From assembly GCA_001899775.1 (NCBI GenBank), contig MKWN01000016.1, forward strand, positions 62,001-126,000: a stretch of DNA of 64,000 nt, written 5' to 3'. The first letter of the stretch is position 1. Every line of letters begins with the position of its first letter. This document shows, piece by piece, positions 11,631 to 60,832 of the stretch. The notes beneath the pieces are model-generated. The model saw only the letters and a list, made by a program, of their open reading frames with translations. It searched no databases and had not been told where the DNA came from. The DNA is from Thiobacillus sp. 65-29 (GTDB lineage Bacteria > Pseudomonadota > Gammaproteobacteria > Burkholderiales > Thiobacillaceae). The position numbers were made by a program, and so were the translations under genes.

Positions 11631-11715
11631 TGGTGCCCGGGGGGGGACTCGAACCCCCACACCTTGCGGCGGCGGATTTTGAATCCGCTGCGTCTACCGA
11701 TTCCGCCACCCGGGC
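11631..11715 (-). tRNA. tRNA-Leu (anticodon CAA)
   Basis: An 85-nt tRNA including an encoded CCA. The acceptor stem GCCCGGG/CCCGGGC is perfect, the T-arm carries GGGGGTTCGAGTCCCCC, and the D-arm has GGCGGAATCGGTAGACGC. The anticodon loop reads TTCAAAA, with anticodon CAA from plus-strand positions 11679-11681. The long variable arm typical of class II tRNAs (about GCCGCAAGGTGT) supports leucine. It lies between pgi and queA, on the pgi strand. Confidence 0.97.
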
Positions 11716-11809: not shown

Positions 11810-13944
<2,135 letters not shown>

Positions 13945-13992: not shown

Positions 13993-14310
13993 GTGATTTC
14001 GCTTGCGCATGCCCAGGCCGCCGCACCGGCCACCCCCGGTCTCACAGACTTCCTGCCGCTCATCATCATCTTCATCCTGTTCTGGTTCATGCTCATCCGC
14101 CCGCAGATGAAGCGCGCCAAGGAACAGAAGAAGATGCTGTCCGAACTGGCGAAGGGCGACGAAATCGTCACCGCCAGCGGCCAGGTCGGCAAGGTGGCGA
14201 AAATCGGTGAGCAATACGTCGCACTGGAAATCGCCGAGGGCGTGATCACTCACGTGCAGAAGCAGTCGGTGCAGACGCTGCTGCCCAAGGGCACCATCAA
14301 GAGCCTCTAG
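13993..14310 (+). CDS. yajC: preprotein translocase accessory subunit YajC
   Basis: A small membrane protein (105 residues, GTG start) that associates with SecDF and the SecYEG translocon. One membrane segment is visible near residues 19-36 (LTDFLPLIIIFILFWFMLI), followed by RPQMKRAKEQKKM and the KGDEIVTASGQVGKV domain typical of YajC. It is followed by secD after a 94-nt gap filled by a heptamer inverted-repeat array. Confidence 0.95.
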   Translation: MISLAHAQAAAPATPGLTDFLPLIIIFILFWFMLIRPQMKRAKEQKKMLSELAKGDEIVTASGQVGKVAKIGEQYVALEIAEGVITHVQKQSVQTLLPKGTIKSL

Positions 14311-14398
14311 GGATCAGGGACCAGGAGCTAGGGACTAGGGACCCCCCCGCCCTGACGCCGCCCCTCCCTAACCCCTAAATCCTAGTCCCTAGACCCCA
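14308..14398. repeat. heptanucleotide inverted-repeat array A (yajC-secD)
   Basis: Left arm 14308-14345 is a run of degenerate 7-nt units of the form GGAYYAG, beginning within the yajC stop codon. Right arm 14364-14397 is a run of units ending in CCCTA, largely complementary to the left arm. The whole can fold into a long stem. It fills the yajC-secD gap. The unit sequence differs from the other three arrays, but the 7-nt period and the inverted arrangement are the same. Confidence 0.8.
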
Positions 14399-14404
14399 AG
14401 CAAA

Positions 14405-16219
14405 ATGAACCGTTACCCGCTCTGGAAATACATCCTCATCGGCATTACGCTGGTGGTCGCCTTTGTTTTCGCCCTGCCCAACTTCTTCGGCGAAGTGCCG
14501 GCCGTGCAGGTTTCACCGGTACGTACGACCGAGAAGGCCGATGCCGCACTGCTGCAACAGGTCGAGGCTGCGTTGAAGACGGGCGGACTCGCCTATCACG
14601 GCGTCGAACTGGCCGGCAACAGCGTCAAGGTGCGCCTCGCCACGACCGACACACAGATCAAGGCGAAGGATGTGCTGCAGAACGCCCTGGGCAACCGCTA
14701 TACGGTCGCGCTCAATCTTGTGCCGGCTTCGCCGGCGTGGCTTGCCTCGGTCAACGCGCTGCCCATGTATCTCGGCCTGGACCTGCGCGGAGGCGTGCAT
14801 TTCCTGCTCGAAGTCGACATGAAGGCGGCGCTGGAAAAGGCCGCGGTGCGCTACCAGAACGATTTCCGCACGGAATTGCGCAACGACAGGATCCGCTACG
14901 GCCGCATCGCCCGCGAGGGCAACACCGTCACGGTACACTTCTCCACGCGCGACCAGCGCGACGCCGCCGCCGGCAAGCTGGGTCTGGCATTCACCGATCT
15001 TGCCTTCACGCCCGAGGACCAGGCCGAGGGCTTCACCCTCACCGCACGCCTGAGGCCCGAAGCCGAAAAGCGCGTACAGGAATTCGCCCTGCAGCAGAAC
15101 ATCACCACACTCAGGAACCGCGTCAACGAGCTCGGTGTCGCGGAGCCGGTGATCCAGCAACAGGGTGCGAGTCGCGTCGTCGTGCAACTGCCCGGCGTGC
15201 AGGATACCGCCAAGGCGAAGGACATTCTTGGCCGCACCGCCACCCTGGAAGTGCGCATGGTCGACGAGCAGGCCGACCCGGTCGCGGTCAGCCAGGGCCA
15301 GGCACCGTTCGGCGCGGAGATCGTGCCGAGCCGTGAAGGTGTGCCGATCGCGGTGAAGAAGGACGTGGTGCTCACCGGCGAGTCGATCACCGACGCCTCG
15401 CCCGGCTTCGACAGCCAGAGCGGCCAGGCGGCAGTACACATCAACCTCGACGGCAAGGGCGCGCGTATCTTCAAGGACATCACGCGCGAGAACGTCGGCA
15501 AGCGCATGGCGATCCTGCTGATCGAAAAGGGCGTCGCCGAGGCGATCACCGCGCCGGTGATCCGCGAGGAAATCGGCGGCGGCCGGGTGCAGATCACCGG
15601 CATGGAGTCCGCCCAGGAAGCCTCCGACGTGGCGCTCCTGCTGCGCGCCGGCGCGCTCGCCGCCCCCATGCAGATCGTCGAGGAACGCACCGTTGGCCCG
15701 AGCATGGGTGCGGAAAACATCAGCAAGGGCTTTCACTCGAACATCTGGGGCTTCATCACCGTGGTCAGCTTCATGACCCTCTACTACCGCGTGTTCGGCC
15801 TGTTCTCGTCGGTTGCACTGGCGATCAACGCCTTCTTCCTCGTCGCCCTGCTGTCGATGTTGCAGGCGACGCTCACCCTGCCGGGCATGGCGGCAATCGC
15901 CCTGACGCTCGGTATGGCGATCGACGCCAACGTGCTGATCAACGAACGCGTACGCGAGGAGCTCAGGAACGGTGCCACGCCGCAGGCCGCGATCCACGCC
16001 GGCTACGAGCGGGCGTGGGCGACGATTCTCGACTCCAACCTCACCACGCTCATCGCCGGCATCGCGCTGTTCTGGCTCGGATCGGGCCCGGTGCGCGGCT
16101 TCGCGGTGGTACTGTGCCTCGGCATTCTCACCTCCATGTTCAGCGCCGTCACGGTATCGCGCGCCATGGTCAACCTCACCTACGGCCGCCAGGCACGTCT
16201 GGCCAAAGTTTCGATCTGA
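14405..16219 (+). CDS. secD: protein translocase subunit SecD
   Basis: Inner-membrane subunit that with SecF uses the proton gradient to help release translocated proteins at the periplasmic face. The protein is 604 residues. A first membrane segment is near residues 8-25. The conserved LGLDLRGGVHFLLEVD motif is at 123-138. A large periplasmic region follows, then a C-terminal five-helix membrane domain with the motif ALTLGMAIDANVLINERVREE. No clear ribosome binding site precedes the ATG. secF follows after 10 nt. Confidence 0.97.
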   Translation: MNRYPLWKYILIGITLVVAFVFALPNFFGEVPAVQVSPVRTTEKADAALLQQVEAALKTGGLAYHGVELAGNSVKVRLATTDTQIKAKDVLQNALGNRYTVALNLVPASPAWLASVNALPMYLGLDLRGGVHFLLEVDMKAALEKAAVRYQNDFRTELRNDRIRYGRIAREGNTVTVHFSTRDQRDAAAGKLGLAFTDLAFTPEDQAEGFTLTARLRPEAEKRVQEFALQQNITTLRNRVNELGVAEPVIQQQGASRVVVQLPGVQDTAKAKDILGRTATLEVRMVDEQADPVAVSQGQAPFGAEIVPSREGVPIAVKKDVVLTGESITDASPGFDSQSGQAAVHINLDGKGARIFKDITRENVGKRMAILLIEKGVAEAITAPVIREEIGGGRVQITGMESAQEASDVALLLRAGALAAPMQIVEERTVGPSMGAENISKGFHSNIWGFITVVSFMTLYYRVFGLFSSVALAINAFFLVALLSMLQATLTLPGMAAIALTLGMAIDANVLINERVREELRNGATPQAAIHAGYERAWATILDSNLTTLIAGIALFWLGSGPVRGFAVVLCLGILTSMFSAVTVSRAMVNLTYGRQARLAKVSI

Positions 16220-16229
16220 GGACCGGATC

Positions 16230-17162
16230 ATGCTGGAATTCTTCCCGTTCAAGAAAACCATCCCCTTCATGAGCTGGGGCAAGCTCACCACGACCATTTC
16301 GCTGGTGACCTTCCTGTTCTCGGTATGGGCGCTGTGGGACCGTGGTCTCAATCTCGGCGTCGATTTCACCGGCGGCACGCTGATCGAGGTCAGTTACCCG
16401 CAGCCTGCCGACCTGCATGCCATCCGCAGCGCACTGGAAAAGACCGGTCTGCCGGAAATCTCGGTGCAGAACTTCGGCACCAGCCGCGACGTGATGATCC
16501 GCCTGCCCAACAAGGGTCATGCCAACGCGTCGGACACCAGCAACCGCGTGATGGGCGCCCTGCAAGCCACCGACGCCTCCGTGGAACTCAAGCGCGTCGA
16601 CTTCGTCGGCCCGCAGGTCGGCAAGGAGCTCTACGATAGCGGCGCGCTTGCGCTGCTGGTCGTCGCCTTCGGCATCATGGCCTATCTGGCGATACGCTTC
16701 GAATGGCGCTTCGCCGTGGCCGGCATGCTCGCCAACATGCACGACATCGTGATCATTCTTGGTGTGTTCGCCTTCTTCCAGTGGGAATTCACCCTGACCG
16801 TGCTCGCTGGCGTGCTGGCCATCCTTGGCTATTCGGTCAACGAGTCGGTCGTCATCTTCGACCGCATCCGCGAGAACATCCGCAAGATGCGCGGCGCCAC
16901 CATTCCGCACATCATCGATGATGCCATCACCCGCACCATGAGCCGCACCATCATCACCCACGGATCGACGCAGATCATGGTGCTCTCGATGCTGTTCTTC
17001 GGCGGCGAGGCGCTGCACAACTTCGCACTCGCGCTCACCATCGGCATCATGTTCGGCATCTATTCGTCGGTGCTCGTCGCCTCGCCACTGCTTCTGATGT
17101 TCGGCGTGAAGCGCGAACACTTCATCAAGCCGGTGGAGAAGAAGGAAGAGGCCGTCGTGTGA
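16230..17162 (+). CDS. secF: protein translocase subunit SecF
   Basis: Partner of SecD, 310 residues. The first membrane segment is followed by the signature GVDFTGGTLIEV (about 44-55). The membrane domain carries GYSVNESVVIFDRIREN, the counterpart of the SecD motif. The start at 16230 lies 10 nt after the secD stop with a TGAGGA ribosome binding site. The frame is open much further upstream (to 15972), but that part is antisense-like shadow within secD. A heptamer array begins at the stop codon. Confidence 0.96.
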   Translation: MLEFFPFKKTIPFMSWGKLTTTISLVTFLFSVWALWDRGLNLGVDFTGGTLIEVSYPQPADLHAIRSALEKTGLPEISVQNFGTSRDVMIRLPNKGHANASDTSNRVMGALQATDASVELKRVDFVGPQVGKELYDSGALALLVVAFGIMAYLAIRFEWRFAVAGMLANMHDIVIILGVFAFFQWEFTLTVLAGVLAILGYSVNESVVIFDRIRENIRKMRGATIPHIIDDAITRTMSRTIITHGSTQIMVLSMLFFGGEALHNFALALTIGIMFGIYSSVLVASPLLLMFGVKREHFIKPVEKKEEAVV

Positions 17163-17233
17163 GGCAGTGAGCAGGAAGCGGTGAGGCGGCAAACCCGCTC
17201 ACCGCTCACCGCTCACCGCTCACCGCTCACCGC
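17160..17233. repeat. heptanucleotide inverted-repeat array B (secF-dedA)
   Basis: The right arm has five perfect tandem copies of CCGCTCA (17195-17229) plus CCGC, ending directly at the downstream ATG (17234). The left arm, 17160-17189, holds degenerate complementary units (GTGAGCA, GTGAGGC) and starts in the secF stop codon. The arms can pair as a stem with a short loop around AAA. No separate ribosome binding site is left for the downstream gene. Confidence 0.88.
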
Positions 17234-17836
17234 ATGCTCCACGACTTCATCGACTGGATTCTCGCCACCGTCCACGACTGGGGCTACACCGGGATTTTCC
17301 TCCTCATGGCGCTGGAGTCCACGGTGCTGCCGGTGCCCAGCGAGCTCGTGCTAATTCCCGCGGGCTATCTTGCGCACCAGGGGCAGATGAATTTCGGGCT
17401 GATCGTGCTCGCCTCCACCCTCGGCAGTCTGCTCGGTGCGTCGTTCAACTACGTCGTGGCGATGTGGCTGGGACGCCCTTTCCTCGAACGCTGGGGCCGC
17501 TGGTTCTTCGTGCGTCCCGAACTGCTGCGCAAGACGGACGTCTTCTTCGCGAAGCACGGAGCGGTGTCCACCTTCACCGGCCGCCTGATTCCCGGTATCC
17601 GCCACCTCATCTCGATCCCCGCCGGGCTGACGCGCATGAACCCCGCGGCGTTCGCGTTCTACACCTGTCTCGGTGCCGGGCTGTGGTCGCTCATCCTCAC
17701 CCTGTTCGGCTACTTCCTCGGTGGCAACGAGGCGCTGATCCGCGAATACCAGCATTTCATCACGGCGGGCGTCATCGCCTTCGTCGCGTTCATCATCGGT
17801 GCGTACGTATGGTGGCAACGTCGCCGGCCGGCGTGA
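17234..17836 (+). CDS. DedA family (SNARE-associated) membrane protein
   Basis: A 200-residue integral membrane protein of the DedA/VTT family, members of which act as lipid (for example undecaprenyl-phosphate) translocases and influence membrane homeostasis. The start region matches the family (LESTVLPVPSELVLIPAGYLA), and the signature GRLIPGIRHLISIPAGLTRM is at about 116-135. Four to five hydrophobic segments are visible. The ATG directly abuts a CCGCTCA heptamer array with no Shine-Dalgarno sequence. The physiological substrate cannot be read from the sequence. Confidence 0.93.
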   Translation: MLHDFIDWILATVHDWGYTGIFLLMALESTVLPVPSELVLIPAGYLAHQGQMNFGLIVLASTLGSLLGASFNYVVAMWLGRPFLERWGRWFFVRPELLRKTDVFFAKHGAVSTFTGRLIPGIRHLISIPAGLTRMNPAAFAFYTCLGAGLWSLILTLFGYFLGGNEALIREYQHFITAGVIAFVAFIIGAYVWWQRRRPA

Positions 17837-29910: not shown

Positions 29911-30363
29911 ATGGCTGGTTCGCGCCGGAGTGCGCGTGAATTCGCCCTGCAGGGCCTGTACGCCTGGCTGGTCGGCGGCGCCGACGTCACCCTCATCGCC
30001 GCCAACCTCAAGGAAGACGAGCAATTCCGCCGTGCCGACGAGGACTACTTCCGCACCCTGCTGTACGGCGTACTGAAGGAAGAAGACCTGCTGAGCTCGC
30101 GTATCGCCCCCCTGCTCGACCGCCCCATCGCCGAACTCTCCCCCATCGAGCGCGGCATCCTGCTCCTCGGTGCTTACGAACTCGTCAACTGCCCGGATGT
30201 GCCCTGGCGCGTCGCCATCAACGAAGGCGTCGAACTGGCGAAGAAGTTCGGCGGCACCGACGGCCACAAGTATGTCAACGGCGTACTCGACAAACTGGCG
30301 CAGGCCGTGCGCGCGGTGGAGATTGCGCACGCGAAGAAGAAAGGCGTGAGCGGGGAGCGGTAA
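29911..30363 (+). CDS. nusB: transcription antitermination factor NusB
   Basis: RNA-binding protein of rRNA antitermination complexes. The protein is 150 residues and all-helical in appearance, with RRSAREFALQGLYAW at the N-terminus, PIERGILLLGAYEL, and the conserved end AINEGVELAKKFGG with GHKYVNGVLDKLA. The ATG at 29911 follows GAGGGGCGGG. The final residues (GVSGER) are encoded by the start of a heptamer array, so the array has supplied the C-terminus and stop. Confidence 0.95.
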   Translation: MAGSRRSAREFALQGLYAWLVGGADVTLIAANLKEDEQFRRADEDYFRTLLYGVLKEEDLLSSRIAPLLDRPIAELSPIERGILLLGAYELVNCPDVPWRVAINEGVELAKKFGGTDGHKYVNGVLDKLAQAVRAVEIAHAKKKGVSGER

Positions 30364-30468
30364 ACGGTAAGCGGTAAGCGGTGAGTGGTTTTTCCGCCGA
30401 CCGTTTACTGCTCCCCGCTTACCGCTCCCCGCTTACCGCTCCCCGCTTACCGCTCCCCGCTTACCCCC
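30346..30468. repeat. heptanucleotide inverted-repeat array C (nusB-thiL)
   Basis: Left arm 30346-30389 has units of GGTAAGC type and begins inside the nusB coding end. Right arm 30415-30463 has four CCGCTTA alternating with three CCGCTCC in perfect 7-nt register, then CCCCC directly before the thiL ATG at 30469. The arms are complementary. It is the most regular of the four arrays. Confidence 0.9.
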
Positions 30469-59669: not shown

Positions 59670-60695
59670 TTGATTTCCTCGCCGCTGCCTCCGGTCATCG
59701 CGCTCACCGCCGGCGAACCCGCCGGCATCGGTCCCGATCTGTGCGTCGCGCTGGCGGCGCGGGAACTGCCGTGTCGGCTGGTCGTGCTCGGTGACGCCGA
59801 AGTGCTGCGCACACGCGCGCGCATGCTCGGCGTCAAGCTCGAGATCACCGGGGGCGCGGACATCCCGGCGCACCGTGCGGGCCGCTTGCACGTGCGCCAC
59901 CTGCCGGTCGCCGCGCCGGTCGTGCCCGGCGTGCCCGACCCCACCAACAGCGCGCACGTCCTGGCGCTGCTCGACGCCGCGCTCGCCGGCTGCCTGGACG
60001 GCAGCTACGACGCGCTCGTCACCGCGCCGGTGCACAAGGGCATCATCAACGACGCCGGCTTCGTCTTCACCGGCCACACCGAATATCTTGCCGAACACAG
60101 CGCCACGCCACGCGTGGTGATGATGCTCACCGGCGGCGGCCTGCGCGTCGCGCTCGCCACCACCCATCTGCCGTTGCGCGCCGTCGCCGATGCCATCACG
60201 CCGCAGCTTCTCACCGACGTGATCCGCATCCTCGATACCGACCTGCGCACGAAATTCGGCATCGCGCGCCCGCGCATCGCCGTCGCCGGCCTCAATCCGC
60301 ATGCCGGCGAATCCGGCCACCTGGGGCGCGAGGAAATCGACATCATCGAGCCCGTCCTGCTGCGTTTGCGCGACGAGGGCCTCGATCTCGTCGGCCCGCT
60401 GCCCGCCGACACCCTGTTCTCGCGCATCCGCCACGAACCGTGCGACGCCGTGCTTGCCATGTACCACGACCAGGGCCTGCCCGTGTTGAAGTACGCAAGC
60501 TTCGGCGCCGGCGTCAACGTCACCCTCGGCCTCCCCTTCATCCGCACGTCCGTCGACCACGGCACCGCGCTCGACCTCGCCGGCAGCGGCCGCGCCGAAC
60601 TCGGCAGCCTGCTGGCGGCGATCGGGATGGCTTGTCAGGGACCAGGAATCAGGAATCAGGGATCAGGGGGGCGTGCGGCTGCGCCGCGTACTTGA
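59670..60695 (+). CDS. pdxA: 4-hydroxythreonine-4-phosphate dehydrogenase
   Basis: NAD-dependent dehydrogenase of vitamin B6 synthesis. Signatures are [54 protein letters not shown] and [12 protein letters not shown], with the three metal histidines visible. I choose the TTG at 59670, preceded by CAGGG, because it gives the normal N-terminus; an ATG at 59625 lies inside surA. The last 20 or so residues (from [13 protein letters not shown]) are encoded by a heptamer array and are not part of the family fold. Confidence 0.92.
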
Positions 60696-60782
60696 TGAAT
60701 TCATGAGCTGCGCCAGGCTTTTTTCATATCCATCGCCCCTTGCCCCTTGCCCCTTGCCCACTGATCCCTGATCCCTCACCCC
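60634..60782. repeat. heptanucleotide inverted-repeat array D (pdxA-rsmA)
   Basis: Left arm 60634-60670 consists of ATCAGGR-type 7-nt units and lies inside the pdxA reading frame. Right arm 60734-60782 has units of TGCCCCT and TGATCCC type, the latter complementary to the left arm. A unique segment of about 60 bp separates the arms. The right arm merges into a second repeat (60773-60832). Confidence 0.85.
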
Positions 60783-60832
60783 AACCCTCTCCCCCAAGGG
60801 GAGAGGGAGCAAACGTGATGCCCAAACTGATT
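60773..60832. repeat. dispersed CCCTCTCCC...GGGAGAGGG repeat, copy 2
   Basis: Nearly identical to 51888-51948 (hairpin plus the AAACGTGATGCCCAAACTGATT tail). Here the tail contains the rsmA start codon and the next four codons, and the hairpin's GAGAGGGAG provides the purine-rich ribosome binding site. Confidence 0.8.

Follow-up and report, generated by a model that had tools for sequence, protein, structure and literature searches.

Tandem 7-mers between genes are known from cyanobacteria as STRR heptamers, and dispersed intergenic hairpins are known from the REP/BIME elements with their RAYT transposases, the hallmark of REPs being a GTAG or GGAG foot with a short palindrome and a RAYT in the genome. 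Rehm et al. (2015) describe heptamers of the form GGGNATC for Xanthomonas and GGGGA(C/T)T units for Nostoc (PMC4692102). In their study, inverted ("convergent") heptamer pairs number 70 in Xcc and 75 in Xac, the G-rich arm occupies the sense strand where it adjoins a stop codon and the antisense strand where it precedes a start codon, the slots are conserved while length and sequence vary, and Nostoc has only a few paired repeats (PMC4692102). The TAACTGA repeats of marine Beggiatoaceae form 169 direct sets, with a single indirect repeat (PMC4679880).

The window analyzed here is the whole 64,000-nt stretch (C16:62001-126000) of a 2.90-Mb Thiobacillus genome in 61 contigs; its SecD is 86 to 89% identical to the nearest five loci, four of which come from Thiobacillus MAGs. 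The earlier note on this DNA had placed four inverted arrays with a strict 7-nt period in the window, which is borne out by direct reading, by a lag scan, and by TRF, which reports most of the arms. With genes named by NCBIfam, arrays 1 to 4 lie at the co-directional junctions yajC-secD, secF-dedA type, nusB-thiL, and pdxA-ksgA, the DedA and UptA models matching the gene downstream of array 2 below their curated cutoffs. The features are as follows.

14307 to 14344, + strand: array 1, left (purine) arm, TAGGGAT CAGGGAC CAGGAGC TAGGGAC TAGGGAC
14362 to 14397, + strand: array 1, right (pyrimidine) arm, CCCTCCCTAACCCCTAAATCCTAGTCCCTAGACCCC, pairing with the left arm in the fold
17160 to 17187, + strand: array 2, left arm, imperfect
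17195 to 17233, + strand: array 2, right arm, 5.6 copies of CCGCTCA, abutting the ATG of the DedA/UptA-like gene
30346 to 30388, + strand: array 3, left arm, AGCGGNN units
30401 to 30465, + strand: array 3, right arm, 4.6 copies of the 14-mer CCGCTTACCGCTCC
60635 to 60668, + strand: array 4, left arm, TCAGGGA/TCAGGAA units, in-frame PdxA tail
60671 to 60706, - strand: array 4, nonperiodic core, GCGTGCGGCTGCGCCGCGTACTTGATGAATTCATGA, found by reading
60735 to 60776, + strand: array 4, right arm, 3.6 copies of GCCCCTT and then 2.3 copies of CTGATCC

The arrays share one layout, in which a loop separates a purine-rich left arm from a pyrimidine-rich right arm and both arms have period 7. Every left arm begins at the upstream stop codon or ahead of it, and in arrays 1 to 3 the right arm reaches to 0 to 7 nt from the next start codon. 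The yajC stop TAG (14308 to 14310) forms the first bases of array 1, whose right arm stops 7 nt short of the secD ATG (14405), and the secF stop TGA (17160 to 17162) forms the first bases of array 2. In array 3, the left arm encodes the last residues of NusB (GVSGER) and its stop TAA (30361 to 30363), and the right arm, with a 14-mer made of two alternating 7-mers, ends 3 nt ahead of the thiL ATG. In array 4, left arm plus loop encode the last ∼19 residues of PdxA (stop at 60693 to 60695). The description of the arrays as lying between genes therefore fits the four junctions but not their exact extent, as they overlap the upstream genes yajC, secF, nusB, and pdxA. In each of the four predicted folds, the left arm pairs with the right (z = -4.7, -5.2, -14.7, and -3.8 for arrays 1 to 4), in agreement with the complementarity proposed earlier, except that in the right arm of array 4, CTGATCC alone matches the left arm and GCCCCTT does not. 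With two unit families in one arm, array 4 is also at odds with the idea that units are homogenized within each site.

In the lag scan of the window (28-nt frame, at least 20 identities), the six segments found at lag 7 and the four found at lag 14, a multiple of 7, were all inside the arrays; lags 4, 5, 8, 11, and 13 gave no segment, lags 6, 9, and 10 gave one each, and lag 12 gave two. Similar arrays occur elsewhere in the same genome: 27 candidate intergenic regions with a lag-7 signal, the window's four included, were found in 858 of 2,896 kb, and three consecutive AGSGRNN units had 72 + 77 matches, against 16 + 9 for the reversed pattern. Across five genomes, 50 of 862 intergenic regions had a lag-7 signal (one of them, L271, 11650, contains masked N), compared with 6, 12, 6, 5, and 1 at lags 5, 8, 10, 11, and 13; as the control lags also give a few, some of the 50 are chance or other repeats. 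Some arrays in this sample are one-armed. Among its regions of at least 60 nt, the signal was present in 33 of 390 co-directional, 5 of 89 convergent, and 7 of 157 divergent ones (P = 0.11 by Fisher's test; P = 0.056 once one junction was moved, the yajC junction of array 1, which the simple gene caller is known to have miscalled as divergent). Placement between co-directional genes, reported for the window arrays and correct for all four, is hence not general. An assembly artifact is unlikely because arrays occur in two genomes that each consist of one contig (G010 and G023). A comparison of the secD gene with plasmids gave no match.

Beyond the genus, the AGGGRYH pattern was present in 7 of 60 genomes of an order-level sample, the genome of the window included. 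Three-unit AGGGRYH matches outside the genus were abundant only in G062, from another family (157 matches), with 1 to 8 in the other five genomes, and several of those in G062 form plus/minus pairs ∼60 to 130 nt apart. This is an expansion outside the genus, either independent or shared. The reach beyond the genus, judged from AGGGRYH alone of the unit families, is patchy.

To follow the same junctions through the genus, we used ThiL, KsgA, SecD, and DedA as queries in 40 genomes, one per species, and obtained 120 loci. The slots upstream of these genes were usable in 114 cases (in 6, the contig ends before the upstream gene), and the 110 slots of at least 45 nt were counted, leaving out 4 shorter ones. 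A period test (14 identities in 21 at lag 7) was passed by 87 of the 110 slots, compared with 0 to 3 at lags 4 to 6 and 8 to 13 and with 0.8 on average in shuffles; the threshold misses some array-like slots (e.g., L221 and L268). Over all 110 slots, lag-7 identity was 0.503, versus 0.266 in dinucleotide shuffles, with lags 14 and 21 next and no other lag above 0.306.

The purine half comes first in 86 of the 87 array slots, the sole exception (L185) having a second repeat in its right half. The periodic stretch starts before or within the upstream stop codon in 55 of the 87 and ends no more than 20 nt from the next start codon in 81, counts to which the shortness of the slots (median, 97 nt) itself contributes. 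AG is phase-locked over three units in 82 of the 87 slots and GG in 72 (a count made without a shuffled control). Array length differs between genomes at the same slot, and PdxA ends in 29 different tails over the 29 usable ksgA slots. In one genome (G031, locus L196), the PdxA C terminus is extended by a GVRGQGS heptapeptide repeat read from a GGGGTCA array, with read-through of about ten units. Presence varies within genomes too: G010 (one contig, 2,909,809 bp) has AGGR arrays at thiL, dedA, and other junctions and none in its secD and ksgA slots. The earlier note had named two outcomes that would count against its reading, namely a lack of similar arrays elsewhere in the genome and identical, length-invariant arrays at the same loci in distant relatives. 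We found the opposite in both respects, since arms co-vary (see below), units and lengths vary, and arrays are scattered over the genome.

Junctions without arrays can hold other long hairpins, as in the secD slot of L042 (GTAGGTCGGGCTTCAGCCCGAC...) and the thiL slot of L176 in G007 (CACAGAGGCACGGAG...CTCTGTGCTTAGTGG); it is as if these junctions favored hairpins of any origin. Directly 3′ of array 4 (window positions 60777 to 60811) lies a separate hairpin repeat, TCACCCCAACCCTCTCCCCCAAGGGGAGAGGGAG, which has close relatives in the ksgA slots of G023 and G039 and in L138 and looks like another dispersed intergenic repeat. In the genome of the window, an insert of ∼150 nt was also seen beside or inside AGGR arrays in L138 (∼14606 to 14836) and L145 (∼12699 to 12993). 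The L138 copy has terminal inverted repeats (TGTCGGACTTGAGC.../...GCTCAAGTCCGACA) with GGAGCC/GGCTCC and CTAG flanks, and the two copies agree over the stretch compared; the insert may be a MITE-like element that landed in arrays.

The two arms of a slot change together. The complementarity of a genome's left half to its own right half exceeded that to the right halves of other genomes at secD (11.5 versus 8.6), dedA (15.5 versus 8.9), thiL (15.7 versus 10.2), and ksgA (15.3 versus 9.7), and at each of the four slots the own-arm mean was reached by none of 20,000 permutations. Kindred genomes are not independent samples, but kinship works against this contrast, because it makes the arms of others more alike. 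The own right half was the single best partner in 6 of 30, 6 of 25, 5 of 28, and 4 of 27 cases at secD, dedA, thiL, and ksgA, i.e., in 21 of 110 overall with a median rank of 3 to 6, a low share because many genomes share a unit family. Predicted RNA folding follows the arrays: z was below -2 in 74 of the 87 array slots and in 7 of the 23 others, with medians of -4.2 and -1.5, respectively.

Under rule-based unit classes, arrays 2 and 3 are AGCGGNN and arrays 1 and 4 are AGGRNNN, and both families recur genome-wide; the view that units of different sites are unrelated does not stand. Across genomes, the same slots hold TAGGGGC, TCAGGGG, TGAGCGG, TGAGTGG, GAGAGTC, CAAGATT, AGGCGTG, and other units. 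On a 30-genome tree built from three proteins, with slots classed as "other" or absent left out, unit class switched at least 3, 8, 8, and 4 times at secD, dedA, thiL, and ksgA, counts that rest on 21, 17, 19, and 19 classed genomes; with "none" as a state, the numbers were 11, 10, 9, and 8. The dedA switches are less certain: the downstream dedA gene is just 55 to 57% identical to that of the window in 8 of the 26 usable dedA slots, so that arrays may have moved together with exchanged genes and some of these slots are not orthologous. In the close relatives G036 and G024, the entire thiL slot differs, arms and loop alike, a pattern more easily reconciled with replacement or recombination than with stepwise drift.

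Each genome favors its own unit family, a preference that we call a dialect. Three-unit pattern counts on both strands, which weigh length as well as number because matches overlap within long arrays and which compare genomes of differing completeness, peaked in different genomes: AGCGG in G000 (94) and G023 (88), with 0 in 18 of 40; AGAG in G009 (76) and G002 (43), with 0 in 24 of 40 and a reversed control that overlaps its own pattern and so is not independent; CTTG in G029 (88), G012 (70), and G008 (70), with 0 in 7 of 40; and AGGGRYH in G037 (171) and G013 (131), with 0 in 6 of 40, the reversed controls of the last two being nonzero (e.g., 13 in G029 and 57 in G013). Two genomes, both incomplete, are nearly empty for the four patterns (G011, one match; G020, seven). 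Similarity between different slots was 19.4 within a genome (123 pairs) versus 15.3 between genomes (4,408 pairs), and the same-genome value was reached in 0 of 5,000 permutations. The dialect is a preference and not a rule, as G000 has AGGR units at two slots and AGCGG units at the other two.

Nonperiodic cores are shared as well. The core GGGAATGNGCGGC had 141 matches in 36 of the 40 genomes, versus 10 for the reversed pattern; among 17 matches that we read (10 of 11 in G025 and 7 of 11 in G031), all but one (L342) lay between heptamer arms. Four G025 loci with different neighbors (L341, L346, L347, and L350) have a core of ∼35 nt in common, with few differences. A second core, GAATTCATCAAG..GCGGC..GCCGCAC, is found in thiL-slot arrays of several genomes and, reversed, in array 4, where GCGTGCGGCTGCGCCGCGTACTTGATGAATTCATGA approximates the reverse complement of the thiL-slot core GAATTCATCAAGCGCGGCGCAGCCGCAC of other genomes. 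In the 858-kb sample of its own genome, the GAATTCATCAAG core was found in array 4 only, apart from one coding-like chance match. Few families, a preferred family per genome, and cores in nonorthologous loci indicate copying between loci besides local generation. Local generation of a 7-mer and its inverse, as put forward earlier, accordingly accounts for part of the picture: the arms are kept in step and the 7-nt unit length is conserved.

We give a probability of about one-half to the reading that self-complementary intergenic heptamer arrays maintain themselves as hairpins, through slippage, template switching, copying between loci, and retention of the RNA hairpin. A purine-rich 7-mer array would grow and shrink by replication slippage in 7-nt steps. 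Its two arms would form a hairpin on which the polymerase, by a process known from elsewhere, could switch templates and copy one arm onto the other. Such switching between inverted repeats is reportedly familiar from work on quasipalindromes in E. coli. One study reports that it homogenizes arms and inverts spacers (PMC8604942), and the array 4 core is oriented oppositely to the thiL-slot cores, as spacer inversion would give. A new unit would thereby spread to both arms, so that the palindrome is renewed while its sequence drifts, and copies outside the 7-nt register would break repeat and stem alike. Occasional copying or gene conversion of elements or cores between loci, seen in part in the shared cores, may lead one genome toward one dialect.

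The transcript would form a stable stem, with the purine strand after the stop of the first gene and the pyrimidine strand ending near the start of the second. In the manner of a REP hairpin between cistrons, such a stem could protect the mRNA of the first gene against decay from the 3′ end and determine how strongly the two genes are expressed relative to each other. Selection would in that case bear on the stem and its placement and not on the letters. This role is suggested by placement and predicted folding.

A possible though rather unlikely alternative is that the arrays are a dispersed REP- or MITE-like transposable element whose ends are heptameric by chance and whose transposase acts in trans, dialects being element subfamilies and slots being insertion hot spots just after stop codons. 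The cores common to nonorthologous loci and the wholesale thiL difference between the sister genomes G036 and G024 would suit such an element, and Y1_Tnp (RAYT-like) matches are present in 33 of the 40 genomes. However, G005 (100% complete) and the single-contig G023 carry arrays with no Y1_Tnp candidate. A MITE is marked by fixed terminal inverted repeats and a target-site duplication, and the arms differ in length and sequence to a greater degree than is expected of such terminal repeats. Of the five Y1_Tnp matches in the genome of the window, the one examined (L144, 3360 to 4063) is a RAYT-like Y1 transposase gene with GTAGGAG..CCGCTTGCGG REP palindromes on both sides, and the ∼600 nt inspected to its left and to its right contain no heptamers. 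Heptamer arrays and a REP/RAYT system are thus found together in this genome, and we reject RAYT mobilization as a general cause, given the array-bearing genomes without Y1_Tnp and the tie of the L144 RAYT to other REPs; a RAYT is also unlikely as the general copying agent.

We regard as improbable the view that the arrays are functionless simple-sequence repeats, produced by slippage that polymerase geometry favors and tolerated between genes. Array length does vary between genomes, the (incomplete) G011 and G020 are nearly free of the four unit patterns, and heptamers are said to be overrepresented in many bacteria, for which the Xanthomonas study suggests polymerase contact size as a reason (PMC4692102). 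Slippage alone yields no inverse copy, though, and the co-variation of arms, the polarity, and the stop/start placement need more. Neutral slippage could nevertheless hold together with the template switching of the hairpin reading.

Slippage and template switching leave the period of 7, the purine-first order, and the genome-wide dialects without explanation. We see only a small chance that the arrays are written in trans by a heptamer-specific factor, an enzyme or a ribonucleoprotein that has a 7-nt footprint or uses a short nucleic acid template and that extends hairpin or break ends near gene junctions by 7-mers. If it did, an evolving template or specificity would produce dialects at unlinked sites while period and purine-first polarity stay, and heptamers of different units in unrelated phyla would be explained as well.

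That a G-quadruplex on the G-rich strand acts on transcription or replication, a role proposed for GGGNATC in Xanthomonas, with the inverted arm secondary, is most improbable: many AGGRNNN units carry GGG every 7 nt, and G4s were measured for oligonucleotides of the Xanthomonas-study repeats (PMC4692102), but (G3+N1-7)x4 occurs on either strand in only 21 of the 87 array slots, which rules out G4 as the conserved property for most, and AGCGGNN, AGAGNNN, and CAAGNNN arrays, which require no GGG tracts, have the same anatomy, position, and polarity.

Two other functions were rejected. Provision of a stop codon in every frame (7 being coprime to 3) fails because AGGGGTC, AGAGTCG, and AGATTCA units hold no stop and because PdxA of G031 reads through its array. 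As for intrinsic terminators, in which a GC-rich stem precedes a run of T, positions 14000 to 17600, with arrays 1 and 2, hold no terminator-like site (2.1 expected in shuffles), and in arrays 3 and 4 no T run follows the right arm. With Rfam 15 at the gathering score, the sole match in the whole window was a tRNA (11634 to 11715), with none at the arrays.

Among the known systems, REP/BIME elements resemble the Thiobacillus arrays in being dispersed intergenic hairpins, but the window arrays have, by reading, no GTAG-type foot, and the arms have period 7. The resemblance to STRR heptamers that the earlier note had pointed out holds in form only; the units differ. The Xanthomonas class, with its inverted pairs and its stop/start placement, is closer (PMC4692102). 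The TAACTGA repeats of Beggiatoaceae are likewise heptamers of sulfur oxidizers that lie between genes and near start codons; unlike the Thiobacillus arrays, they have a single unit, and a paired-arm class does not figure in the abstract of their description (PMC4679880). Among the matches listed in a search of the open-access literature, such arrays in Thiobacillus and within-genus dialects are unreported, although a subscription paper could exist.

A 7-nt repeat length is favored in bacterial intergenic regions, and the closest study tied such repeats to G-quadruplexes; a genus in which period, polarity, and placement are fixed while the letters change separates these ideas. The conserved thing is a hairpin in 7-nt register, neither a G4 nor one binding site. 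The 40-genome set offers a natural experiment on arm homogenization, on dialects, and on the effect of a stop-to-start hairpin on neighboring genes, and the array-encoded tails of NusB and PdxA show how such repeats can become coding.

With the Xanthomonas heptamers, the Thiobacillus arrays share the strict 7-nt period, the dispersed intergenic location, conserved slots of variable length and sequence, and inverted pairs with a G-rich arm at the stop codon and a C-rich arm before the start codon (PMC4692102). There, one GGG-based consensus per genome is described and the G4 is the central idea (PMC4692102). On reading, none of the units in the window's four arrays matches GGGNATC; those of arrays 2 and 3 are GCGG based, and AGGAATC in array 4 is one letter off. 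In contrast to Xanthomonas, the Thiobacillus families (AGCGG, AGGR, AGAG, CAAG, and AGGCG) differ between genomes at the same slot, most slots have no G4 motif, arm co-variation has been measured, and genomes have dialects. Inverted 7-nt arrays as such are therefore not new, and those of Thiobacillus are the same kind of object as the Xanthomonas heptamers; what appears to be new is the turnover of units with co-variation of the arms and the dialects within one genus.
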